From Dehalococcoidia bacterium (GTDB lineage: Bacteria > Chloroflexota > Dehalococcoidia > DSTF01 > JACRBR01), in NCBI GenBank assembly GCA_040902535.1, contig JBBDXD010000001.1, forward strand, positions 1 to 64,000: 64,000 nucleotides of DNA. The letters are read 5' to 3'. A model generated the notes under the pieces. It made no database searches and was not told the origin of the DNA. It saw only the letters and a program-made list of their open reading frames with translations. Below, piece after piece: positions 1,122 through 6,964 of this stretch. Position 1 is the first letter of the stretch. Every line of letters starts with the position of its first letter. A program made the translations under genes and the position numbers.

Positions 1122-1576
1122 CGCGTGCTGTGGCGCAGCGCGCGCTGCATGTCGCGTTCCGCATCGCGCTTTGCGATCGCCTGGCGCTTATCGTACTGCT
1201 TGCGACCGCGCACGAGTCCGAGCTCGACCTTGGCCATGCCGCGCTTCAGGTACAGGTTGAGCGGAATGACGGTGAGGCCGCGCTCGTTCATCGAGCGTGC
1301 GAGTTCGTGGATCTCCTTGCGGTGCAGAAGCAGCCGTCGCGGGCGCGTCGGTTCGTGGTTCATGTGACTGCCGGCCTCATAGGGCGCAATGTGGGCGCCG
1401 TAGAGCCACATTTCGCCATCGAGCGGGCGCGCGTACGCCTCGCGGATGCTGGCGCCATTTGCGCGGATCGACTTGATCTCGGTGCCGGTGAGGCTGATGC
1501 CGGCCTCTACGCGTTCAAGGATCTCGTAGTCGTGGAACGCCTTGCGGTTCGAGGCGACCTGCTTGTTGTCGGACAT
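1118..1576 (-). CDS. smpB: SsrA-binding protein SmpB
   Basis: SmpB binds the tRNA-like domain of tmRNA and takes it into the A site of stalled ribosomes. The 152-residue length is normal. Family signatures are visible: NRKAFHDYEILERVEAGI near residue 10, LTGTEIKSIRANGASIREAYA, the MNHEP segment, and the ERGLTVIPLNLYLKRGMAKVE strand region. The tail KQYDKRQAIAKRDAERDMQR matches the basic C-terminal segment that enters the decoding centre. It begins 13 nt after the stop of the CtpA-like protease gene and overlaps the methyltransferase start by 4 nt. Its RNA partner lies just downstream. Confidence 0.98.
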   Translation of the reverse strand: MSDNKQVASNRKAFHDYEILERVEAGISLTGTEIKSIRANGASIREAYARPLDGEMWLYGAHIAPYEAGSHMNHEPTRPRRLLLHRKEIHELARSMNERGLTVIPLNLYLKRGMAKVELGLVRGRKQYDKRQAIAKRDAERDMQRALRHSTR

Positions 1577-1589
1577 AACGCCTGCCGGA

Positions 1590-2903
1590 CTAACCGCCGT
1601 CCGTCGGGGTCGCTTCCGGATCCGCGGTGGGGCTCGCCTGCGGCGTTAACGCCGTGGCCGGCGTCGTGTCCGTACCGCGAAGCACGTCGAGCGCCTTGAA
1701 AAGCTGTACGTCGCGCCGCTGGTCAATGTCTTCGTCCGAGAGTTGCACCTCGATGTCGGGCCGGACGCCGACGCCATCGATCGCGAGGCCATCGGGTGTC
1801 AGCCACTTGGCGATGCTGATGTAGACCTGGCCGCCGTCTCCCAGGTCGTTGGAGATATTGACCGTGCCCTTGCCGAACGACTTTTCGCCCACGACGGTAG
1901 CACGGCCGTTGTCGGACAGGGCGGCGGCGAGCACCTCCGATCCGCTGGCGCTGAAGCGGTTGATCAACACGACCACCGGGATCTCCGTCGCGATACCGCC
2001 GCGGCCGGCGCGGATGTGCTGTGGATCGTCGTTACCCCGCTCGACTTCGCTGAGGACGATGCCCTCATCGAGGAACTCGTCGGCGACCTCCACGGTCGTG
2101 CGCAGCAGTCCGCCCGGGTTGTTGCGCAGGTCGAGGACGACGCCGCGCTTGCCGCTGTCGACCGCGTCGCGCAGCGCCTGGCGGAACTGTTCGATCGTCG
2201 GCTGCGTGAACTCGCGGATGTAGATGTATGCGACGTCGTCGATCGGCGTGCCGGCGCCGTCTTGCAGCGCGCCGCCGGGGGGCTGCGTTGTGACGCTCTG
2301 GACTTCGATTTCGTCGCGCTCGATTTCGAGCGTCTCCTCCTGGCCGTCGCTGTGGCGCACGACCAGCGTTACCGTGCTGCCCTTGGGCCCGCGGATCATG
2401 ATGACCGCCTTCTCCTGGGTCCAACCCTCCGTCGACTCTCCGTTGACGGACACGATGACATCGCCGGACTGGATGCCTGCGCGCTCGGCCGGGGTGTTCT
2501 CGATCGGCGCGACGATAATGATCTCGCCGTTCTCCGAGGCGACGGTCGCGCCAATGCCCTCGAAAGAGCCGCTGGGACCGGTGCTCGTCGCCACCGTGAC
2601 CGGATCGACGTAAAAGGTGCCGCTGTCGCTCAGCGTCTGCAGCATGCCATTGATGGCCGCCTCGTACAGCGCCTGCTCATCGATCCGGTCGGGGTCGACG
2701 TAGCGGTCATCGAGCAAATCCAGGATCTGGTTGAGGGTCTCGAAGTCGATGTCGCCTTCGAGGTCCTGGCCGTCGCTGGGAGAGTTGACGGTTGGCGATG
2801 CGGAGGCATCGTCGTCGGCCAGCACGTAGCCGATTGCGAACGCCAGGACGAGGATAGAGGCGGCGAGCAGACCGAGAACGGTCCAGCGAGCGGCGTTCAG
2901 CAT
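1590..2903 (-). CDS. S41 family C-terminal processing protease (CtpA/Prc type)
   Basis: This is a 437-residue exported serine protease. Residues about 7-29 form an N-terminal membrane anchor, a low-complexity linker follows, and residues about 110-195 form a PDZ domain (GIGATVASENGEIIIVAPI; NTPAERAGIQSGDVIVSVNG). The S41 catalytic domain shows LDLRNNPGG (258-266). The likely Ser-Lys dyad is S320 in NRFSASGSEVL and K345 in GEKSFGKGTV, a spacing of 25 residues as in E. coli Prc. The C-terminus is Pro/Thr-rich. Members of this family recognise apolar C-termini. The gene heads an apparent operon with smpB (13 nt gap), which suggests a link to tagged or truncated proteins, though this is inference. 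Confidence 0.93.
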   Translation of the reverse strand: MLNAARWTVLGLLAASILVLAFAIGYVLADDDASASPTVNSPSDGQDLEGDIDFETLNQILDLLDDRYVDPDRIDEQALYEAAINGMLQTLSDSGTFYVDPVTVATSTGPSGSFEGIGATVASENGEIIIVAPIENTPAERAGIQSGDVIVSVNGESTEGWTQEKAVIMIRGPKGSTVTLVVRHSDGQEETLEIERDEIEVQSVTTQPPGGALQDGAGTPIDDVAYIYIREFTQPTIEQFRQALRDAVDSGKRGVVLDLRNNPGGLLRTTVEVADEFLDEGIVLSEVERGNDDPQHIRAGRGGIATEIPVVVLINRFSASGSEVLAAALSDNGRATVVGEKSFGKGTVNISNDLGDGGQVYISIAKWLTPDGLAIDGVGVRPDIEVQLSDEDIDQRRDVQLFKALDVLRGTDTTPATALTPQASPTADPEATPTDGG

Positions 2904-5289: not shown

Positions 5290-5508
5290 ATGCGGACAAA
5301 GGCCGACACCATCCTGGATGAGCGCGGACGCGTCATGTTTCGGTGCCTTGACTGCGCCCAACCGATGACGAGAAGCGACTTCTTCGACCTCGGTCTGCGC
5401 TTGCCTGAGCTCGGCGAGACCCCGGACGATTACTGCGACACGGAACTGATCGATGGCTTCGAGCACGCCGCCTGCCACGAGCGCCGGCGTGGGGCGCGCG
5501 CGGGCTGA
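5290..5508 (+). CDS. small cysteine-containing protein, unknown function
   Basis: The 72-residue protein begins at an ATG 10 nt after a GGAGG ribosome binding site. It contains a CLDC pair (residues 19-22), a later Cys at about 48 and a HAACH group at about 58-62. That pattern could bind one zinc ion, but it matches no family I recognise. It is followed by a noncoding leader that belongs to the next gene. Coding status rests on the ribosome binding site, codon use and the ordered Cys pairs. Confidence 0.55.
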   Translation: MRTKADTILDERGRVMFRCLDCAQPMTRSDFFDLGLRLPELGETPDDYCDTELIDGFEHAACHERRRGARAG

Positions 5509-5555
5509 CGACATCAGGCCAATTGACGCTCCGTCGTATTGACGATAGCGTGCAC

Positions 5556-5680
5556 GCAGGCAAAGGGGAGTAATCGGTCCCGCAGCGCGGGACGGTCCGG
5601 ATCGACAAACCCGTCCGCCGCAGGCAGACCGGTCCGGACTACCTTCGCGAAGGCGTTGGTGCGGTGAGACCTTTGATGAC
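5556..5680 (+). promoter_or_regulatory. yybP-ykoY (Mn2+) riboswitch aptamer
   Basis: The leader of the antiporter gene carries both conserved halves of the yybP-ykoY element: CAAAGGGGAGTA (5561-5572) and GGTGAGACCTTTG (5663-5675). CAAAGG pairs with CCTTTG to form P1, and G+C-rich hairpins fill the middle. In this family, Mn2+ bound between loops L1 and L3 stabilises P1. The 3' strand of P1 (5670-5675) is also the 5' strand of the following terminator stem, so the two structures exclude each other. The expected logic is that high Mn2+ allows readthrough into the transporter gene. Confidence 0.9.
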
Positions 5681-5702
5681 AACGGTCATCAGGGGTTTTT
5701 TT
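5670..5702 (+). terminator. intrinsic terminator, riboswitch expression platform
   Basis: The stem CCTTTGATGAC (5670-5680) pairs with GTCATCAGGGG (5685-5695) across the loop AACG, with two G-U pairs. Seven T residues follow (5696-5702). It overlaps the closing helix of the aptamer and ends 20 nt before the antiporter start codon. Confidence 0.92.
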
Positions 5703-5722
5703 GTGGCCCGGAGGCGCGCGCG

Positions 5723-6964
5723 TTGACGAGCTTCTTGCGGACGTGGCAGTGGCCGATCTTCATGGGCCTCATGGCCTGGCCAGCCGTGCTGGCGCGGTTT
5801 CACGTCTTCAGCGCCCCTCATTGGTTCGAGACCTTGCTCTTTGGCCTGGCGATCGTCTCGGCCGCGTTCCTGCTGACGTGGACCGCCGAAGCCGCCGAGC
5901 GCGACGTGCCTCGCACGCTGGCGCTGGCGGGCCTGGCGCTGATCGCCGTGCTGCCGGAGTACGCCGTGGATGCGGTGTTCGCGTGGAAGGCCGGCGAAGA
6001 CCCGTCGTACGCTTCTTACGCAACAGCGAACATGACGGGCGGCAACCGGCTGCTCGTGGGCGTCGGCTGGACCGTCGTCGTCGGCATCTTCTGGTTCCGG
6101 ACGAAGGGCAGCGTGCTCAAGCTCGCGTCGGTGCACCGGAACGAGGTCGGCATCCTCGCGATCGCGACCGTGTACTCATTCATCATTCCGTTCCGCGGCG
6201 GCATTACGCTTTTCGACGCGGCGTTCCTGATCAGCCTGTTCGGCGTCTACGTCTACCTGGCATCGCGGGGTGATGTCGAAGAGGAGTCATCCCTCGTCGG
6301 CCCTGCCGAGACGATAGGCAACCTGCCGACCCGGCAGCGCCGGACGGTGCTCGTGGCCATGTTCCTGTACGCGGGTGTTGCGATCCTGCTCGCCGCGGAG
6401 CCCTTCGCAGAAGGGTTGATCGAAACCGGCACGCAATTCGGTATCGACGAATTTACGCTCGTGCAATGGCTCGCGCCGCTCGCCTCGGAGTTCCCGGAGT
6501 TCCTCGTCGCGTCGCTATTGGCGTGGCGAATGCGCGCCGATGCCGCGCTCGGCGCGCTCGTCTCGTCGAAGGTGAACCAGTGGACGCTGCTGATCGGCAC
6601 CCTGCCGATCGCGTTCGCGCTGTCGAGCCAGTCCCTCGACCCGTTGCCGACAGATGAGCGTCAGGTCGAAGAGGTGTTCCTCACGGCCGCACAGAGCCTG
6701 CTGGCGGTAGTGCTGTTGATCAACCTGCGCATGTCGCTCTGGGAGGCGGGCACGCTGCTGGTGCTCTTCCTGGCGCAGTTCTTTACGCCGCACGACATCA
6801 TCTCGCGCGACACGTTCTCGTACGCGTACCTCCTGTTGGCGGCGATGTTCCTCTTGCGACAGTTGCTGGAGATGCGCCCGTTTATCGGCGGCCCTCCCCG
6901 CGGTCAACTCGCGCGGCCGCCCTCGCGGGCTCCAGAGCCCTCGCCGCGGCCCGCCGGTTCTTGA
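5723..6964 (+). CDS. CaCA-type cation antiporter under Mn2+ riboswitch control
   Basis: The 413-residue membrane protein has about ten hydrophobic segments and two alpha-repeat-like regions of the sodium/calcium exchanger superfamily: LPEYAVDAVFAWK with ATANMTGGNRLLVG (about 79-115), and LASEFPEFLVASLLAW with GALVSSKVNQWTLLIG (about 252-292). The acidic residues of the first motif and the Glu pair in SEFPEF are likely ion ligands. The start is a TTG 8 nt after CGGAGG; no better start exists after the terminator. The riboswitch upstream argues that the physiological substrate is Mn2+ efflux rather than Ca2+. The C-terminal tail is Pro/Arg-rich and probably cytoplasmic. Confidence 0.88.
   Translation: MTSFLRTWQWPIFMGLMAWPAVLARFHVFSAPHWFETLLFGLAIVSAAFLLTWTAEAAERDVPRTLALAGLALIAVLPEYAVDAVFAWKAGEDPSYASYATANMTGGNRLLVGVGWTVVVGIFWFRTKGSVLKLASVHRNEVGILAIATVYSFIIPFRGGITLFDAAFLISLFGVYVYLASRGDVEEESSLVGPAETIGNLPTRQRRTVLVAMFLYAGVAILLAAEPFAEGLIETGTQFGIDEFTLVQWLAPLASEFPEFLVASLLAWRMRADAALGALVSSKVNQWTLLIGTLPIAFALSSQSLDPLPTDERQVEEVFLTAAQSLLAVVLLINLRMSLWEAGTLLVLFLAQFFTPHDIISRDTFSYAYLLLAAMFLLRQLLEMRPFIGGPPRGQLARPPSRAPEPSPRPAGS

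Follow-up and report, generated by a model that had tools for sequence, protein, structure and literature searches.

The window analysed here is a 64,000-nt stretch of DNA from a Dehalococcoidia bacterium (GCA_040902535.1, contig JBBDXD010000001.1, positions 1 to 64,000 of the forward strand). An ORF at 5723–6964 (+) is preceded, in 5' to 3' order, by a promoter, an aptamer, a terminator and a GGAGG, and starts with TTG at 5723. The promoter (5523–5551, +) consists of TTGACG (5523–5528), a 17-nt spacer and TAGCGT (5546–5551) and is conserved in the leaders; the transcript is expected to start just before the helix P1. The aptamer (5561–5675, +) forms the four-way junction of a yybP-ykoY (Mn2+) riboswitch, as indicated by the Rfam model RF00080, by our covariance model R2 and by covariation. 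Its switch helix P1, marked by compensatory changes, is formed by the 5' strand CAAAGG (5561–5566) and 5670–5675. L1 spans 5565–5572, the P2 hairpin (5577–5593) pairs 5577–5583 with 5587–5593, P3 (5595–5639) carries the metal-binding loop L3 (5605–5611), and the P4 hairpin lies at 5641–5660. The intrinsic terminator (5666–5702, +), predicted by RNAfold in the window and in orthologs, has a stem of 5666–5680 and 5685–5699 and a U-tract at 5696–5702. The Shine-Dalgarno sequence GGAGG, recognised by its sequence, is located at 5710–5714, and the ORF encodes a 413-residue CaCA exchanger of the CAX_Af type. Just 5' of the promoter, a small Cys-containing ORF, MRTKADTILDERGRVMFRCLDCAQPM...YCDTELIDGFEHAAC, lies at 5290–5508 (+), and peptides resembling its product are encoded 5' of the CAX gene in loci L004 and L008. 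The window also holds a tmRNA gene (RF00023; 2–352, –) and a bacterial large SRP RNA gene (RF01854; 56639–56900, –), both above the gathering score.

The window RNA is a well-supported, divergent member of the known yybP-ykoY riboswitch class. Consistent with the earlier note, which assigned it to this class from the sequence, both conserved halves are there, namely L1 GGGGAGUA at 5565–5572 and the L3 core UCGACAAAC at 5602–5610, and P1, P2, P3 and P4 are arranged in the four-way junction of the class. The RF00080 scan that the note called for bears this out in part: a permissive scan of 401 nt gives a match at 5553–5654 (21.7 bits, E = 4e-4), but the gathering cut-off of 45 bits is not reached. 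Because the score falls below this cut-off, the aptamer goes unreported when the window is scanned with Rfam at default settings, and a scan of the whole genome with RF00080 gives no match. Since RF00080 is too distant from these sequences, two models of our own were built: R1, trained only on leaders of CAX exchanger genes, and R2, a covariance model made from six leaders of related genomes with the window left out. The sole R2 match in the 64 kb is 5561–5675 (70.7 bits, E = 5.5e-17); E-values from R1 and R2 are rough, with a large margin. R1 matches UPF0016, TerC and CaCA leaders that had been found with RF00080, with E-values from 1e-14 to 2e-4, as expected of homology to accepted members. 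Across 400 Chloroflexota genomes only one leader scores above the RF00080 cut-off, although many of the leaders found precede Mn2+ genes. The cut-off is therefore too strict for Chloroflexota, and this shows that it hides most of these switches in the GC-rich members of the phylum. Five weak RF00080 matches were set aside as probable chance, four because they lie inside coding frames (L038, L041, L045 and L046) and one because it is partial (L043).

The predicted structure is supported by folding and by covariation. The leader folds better than its own shuffles (z = -3.1; 1 of 200 shuffles as good). An alignment of five leaders has 95.2% of its cells paired, with two-sided change in seven pairs, and none of 500 shuffles reaches any of the five measures of covariation. 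In these five leaders, both sides are altered in 5 of the 7 pairs of P2, and P4 has 3 pairs with 86.7% of cells paired. The P1 sequence is identical in all seven leaders of the family, and compensatory changes occur in 5 of its 6 pairs when 31 related leaders are compared. In this larger alignment, which was fitted to the model, 30 of 33 pairs show two-sided change.

The leader is conserved at orthologous genes of the same family. Orthologs of the exchanger ORF were gathered from 18 genomes of the order. A search for the same leader at orthologs, proposed in the earlier note, finds the order promoter, aptamer, terminator and exchanger in seven of the eight genomes of the window's own family (f1): the window's own genome, G000, and G002–G007. 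The leader of G005 is counted though its contig ends inside the gene, and that of G002 though a contig end splits it inside the terminator hairpin. TTGAC-N17/18-TAGCGT lies 9–11 nt 5' of P1 in all seven leaders, and the terminator is conserved in every family leader that can be read through. The remaining genome, G001 (L004 from ~1380), keeps the promoter and the terminator and has a short GC hairpin in place of the aptamer; its leader is a natural sensor-less version with an intact terminator. All leaders of the exact CAX type come from this one bacterial family. Because orthologs of ~50% identity in the sister families f2 and f3 and in other phyla are without the leader, the coupling of the riboswitch to CAX is a trait of family f1. 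The RNA could in principle resemble the class by chance or be a decayed, functionless relic, as the sub-threshold RF00080 score and the loss of the aptamer in G001 might suggest. However, compensatory changes, the occurrence in seven genomes before the same gene and the E-value of 5.5e-17 with the leave-one-out model R2 make this extremely improbable.

The metal core of the aptamer is retained. The columns of L1 are invariant or kept in 30 of 31 leaders, and the C and A of L3 are kept in 31 of 31, the adenosine corresponding to A5607 in the window. The equivalent adenosine contacts Mn2+ through its N7 in crystal structures, as A48 in the X. oryzae riboswitch and as A41 in that of L. lactis (PMC6754395). 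The window thus combines the L1 of the class (5565–5572) with an L3 that holds the Mn2+-contacting adenosine. The L3 loops of all seven CAX leaders, CA[A/G]ACCC, do not have the U by which the U-turn is made in the two crystal structures. This loss would fit a yybP-ykoY variant with another divalent ligand, above all Ca2+, matched to a Ca2+/H+ exchanger, and such variants have been expected in the class by Sherlock and Breaker (PMC7266159). A change of this kind is nevertheless quite improbable, because the N7-contact adenosine is kept in all 31 leaders, L1 is near-invariant, and U-less loops are also present in UPF0016 leaders (L026, L028 and L029) and TerC leaders (L054, L061 and L062) and so are not particular to the exchanger. 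The L3 change was rejected as proof of a different ligand for the same reason, and, since UPF0016 and TerC leaders share it, the missing U probably reflects drift of the loop. It is very improbable that the CAX-linked leaders form a ligand-switched subclass sensing Ca2+ and controlling a Ca2+/H+ exchanger; if true, this subclass would be a natural Ca2+ riboswitch. Mn2+, which is favoured over Ca2+ because the adenosine is kept and the regulon is shared, is presumably the ligand of the window RNA.

The aptamer and the terminator are mutually exclusive, as the earlier note had proposed. The segment CCUUUG (CCTTTG in the DNA, 5670–5675) is both the 3' strand of P1 and part of the 5' side of the terminator, and the two structures compete for it in folding. 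In the growing transcript of the window, the probability of P1 is ~0.9 until ~15 nt past P1 and then falls to near 0. The same exclusion is seen in all six leaders folded, in which P1 is formed with a probability of ~0.8–0.9 in the short transcript and near zero once the 3' side of the terminator is out. The terminator form of the window leader has an energy of -73.9 kcal/mol and the P1-forced form one of -66.7 kcal/mol, so the terminator should win without ligand. The placement of the P1 3' strand within an intrinsic terminator, as in antitermination, is conserved in the leaders of the family.

This anatomy resembles that of the L. lactis switch, in which Mn2+ holds the switch helix and RNA polymerase passes (PMC11087558). 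Both have a switch helix near the 5' end (P1.1 in L. lactis) with its 3' segment in the terminator stem, and both share the L1/L3 metal core and the antitermination logic (PMC11087558). They differ in the L3 sequence, UCAAUUC in L. lactis and ACAAACC in the window, and in the gene controlled, which is a P-type ATPase gene in L. lactis (PMC11477304) and a CAX exchanger gene here. Because the anatomy matches and the metal site is kept, the window switch would be ON with Mn2+. RNA polymerase would start beside P1 and make the aptamer first. At high cytosolic Mn2+, the metal would dock L1 on L3 and hold P1, thereby keeping CCUUUG out of the terminator stem and allowing the exchanger gene to be read. 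At low Mn2+, CCUUUG would pair downstream in the terminator (CCUUUGAUGAC/GUCAUCAGGGG followed by the U-tract), and transcription would stop.

The product of the ORF belongs to the CaCA superfamily. PF01699 matches the 413-residue protein twice, corresponding to two repeats, and the best solved relative is a full-length homologue, 4kpp_A (E = 3.2e-95), which is CAX_Af, the H+/Ca2+ exchanger of Archaeoglobus fulgidus (PDB 4KPP). E79 and E256 align with the metal-site glutamates E78 and E255 of CAX_Af, so each of the two alpha-repeats has one. The protein was previously described as a CaCA antiporter that would otherwise be called Na+/Ca2+ type; the superfamily holds, but the nearest solved relative is an H+/Ca2+ rather than a Na+/Ca2+ exchanger. 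No NCBIfam model matches the window protein. Residues 254–259 are ASEFPE in all seven f1 proteins, whereas all other aligned homologues, CAX_Af included, have ASE[S/A/T]PE; this change adjoins the second metal-site glutamate and is confounded with phylogeny. Because CAX_Af is known for H+/Ca2+ exchange and the metal-site glutamates are unchanged, the protein sequence by itself gives no pointer to Mn2+. The fold can handle Mn2+, since plant CAX2 performs Mn2+/H+ exchange (PMC3470555).

Related leaders precede genes of several transporter families. Over 393 genomes of the class, R1 finds nine leaders outside f1, eight of them before TerC and one before a TIGR00367 CaCA gene. Within the order, two TerC genes and one UPF0016 gene of G016 have related leaders, and G017 and G003 carry weaker ones at TerC. 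R1 also matches loci that RF00080 found independently in the 400 Chloroflexota genomes: before UPF0016 (L026, L028, L029, L030 and L034), before TIGR00367-like CaCA genes (L027, L032, L035, L036, L037, L039 and L040) and before a P-type ATPase gene (L033). Two other RF00080 loci, before a P-type ATPase gene (L042) and before TerC (L044), give no R1 match. At L035 and L036 (G215 and G389), TerC and TIGR00367-like CaCA genes are divergent and each has its own Mn2+-type riboswitch, at 916–1018 (–) and 1499–1605 (+) in L035 and at 1271–1371 (–) together with a forward leader in L036. In Actinomycetota, RF00080 matches lie before a third CaCA type, which scores below the TIGR00367 cut-off (L095 and L096; G778 and G970); the other RF00080 targets in 396 genomes of this phylum are UPF0016, TerC and MntP. 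The UPF0016, TerC and P-type ATPase leaders thus belong to the same RNA family as the window leader and serve other transporter families. The Chloroflexota leaders of TIGR00367 (YrbG-type) genes likewise place a Mn2+ riboswitch before a CaCA exchanger, but one of another branch, which scores 270–285 bits with TIGR00367.

Some related leaders have other neighbours. In G970, an apparent second leader of the Actinomycetota kind (L083) is followed by the degraded start of a CaCA gene and by a gene for a universal stress protein. In G367, an RF00080 match of 35.7 bits is located 5' of a gene for a Peptidase_M50 and CBS-domain protein (L031, 337–1614, –), a kind of gene that Mn2+ switches do not usually control, and this leader gives no R1 match. 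The window's genome has a second related riboswitch at G000:C3:54706–54808 (L063 1501–1603; L081 1707–1809; R1 50.5 bits), which precedes a 95-residue Asp/Arg-rich ORF (MLDRLFDMLGGGDDDGDDRD..., L081 1860–2147) and then a GNAT-like gene. Small acidic ORFs of a similar kind (MFEFLEDLFDR..., MFDELFELFERD... and MELFDLFERE...) lie between riboswitch and TerC in L054, L057 and L059. The small acidic ORFs look like an unnamed family, perhaps of metal-binding proteins; no NCBIfam model matches the one that was tested.

The regulon and the genome context make Mn2+ export by the CAX exchanger likely. Export of Mn2+ is strengthened because the regulon is shared with TerC, UPF0016, a P-type ATPase and two other CaCA branches, and because the usual Mn2+ exporters tested, UPF0016, MntP and TerC, are absent: models of these families and of Nramp have no match in the window's genome. 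The CAX gene is the one CaCA gene of this genome, and it may encode its Mn2+ exporter. It is also conceivable that the RNA senses Mn2+ but that Ca2+ is the main ion exported, or that both are, so that Mn2+ excess is answered by an adjustment of Ca2+. The closest solved homologue, CAX_Af, is an H+/Ca2+ exchanger with identical metal-site glutamates, and a precedent has been proposed for the streptococcal MgtA ATPase, which has a yybP-ykoY switch responsive to Mn2+ as well as to Ca2+ (PMC9495176, PMC11434433). The mgtA switch likewise stands before the gene of a transporter with a link to these two ions, but that transporter is a P-type ATPase and the RNA has a three-way junction (PMC9495176). 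Main export of Ca2+ is unlikely, because it would leave the Mn2+ response without an exporter in a genome that lacks the tested exporter families, and because related leaders sit before TerC, UPF0016 and P-type ATPase genes. We therefore favour export of Mn2+: the proton-coupled CAX_Af-type exchanger would export Mn2+, perhaps Ca2+ too, and would serve as the Mn2+ exporter in a genome without UPF0016, MntP and TerC. The model as a whole, a Mn2+-responsive transcriptional ON switch driving a CAX-type Mn2+ exporter, is probably correct.

Bacterial CaCA proteins are annotated by default as Na+/Ca2+ or Ca2+/H+ exchangers. The RNA itself is of a known class; what is informative here is that CaCA exchangers recur among the targets. 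The targets named in the literature searched, which did not include the primary gene lists of Dambach 2015, Price 2015 and Martin 2019, are P-type ATPases, MntP, UPF0016 and TerC-type proteins, and no CaCA target of a riboswitch is named there. Mn2+ riboswitches lie before three separate CaCA branches: the CAX_Af type, the TIGR00367/YrbG type and the third type in Actinomycetota. The conservation of the switch in related bacteria suggests that the exchanger of the window, in common with several other 'calcium' exchangers, is in fact induced for the export of manganese. The three branches hint directly, and in a way open to testing, that some members of the superfamily handle Mn2+ in bacteria.
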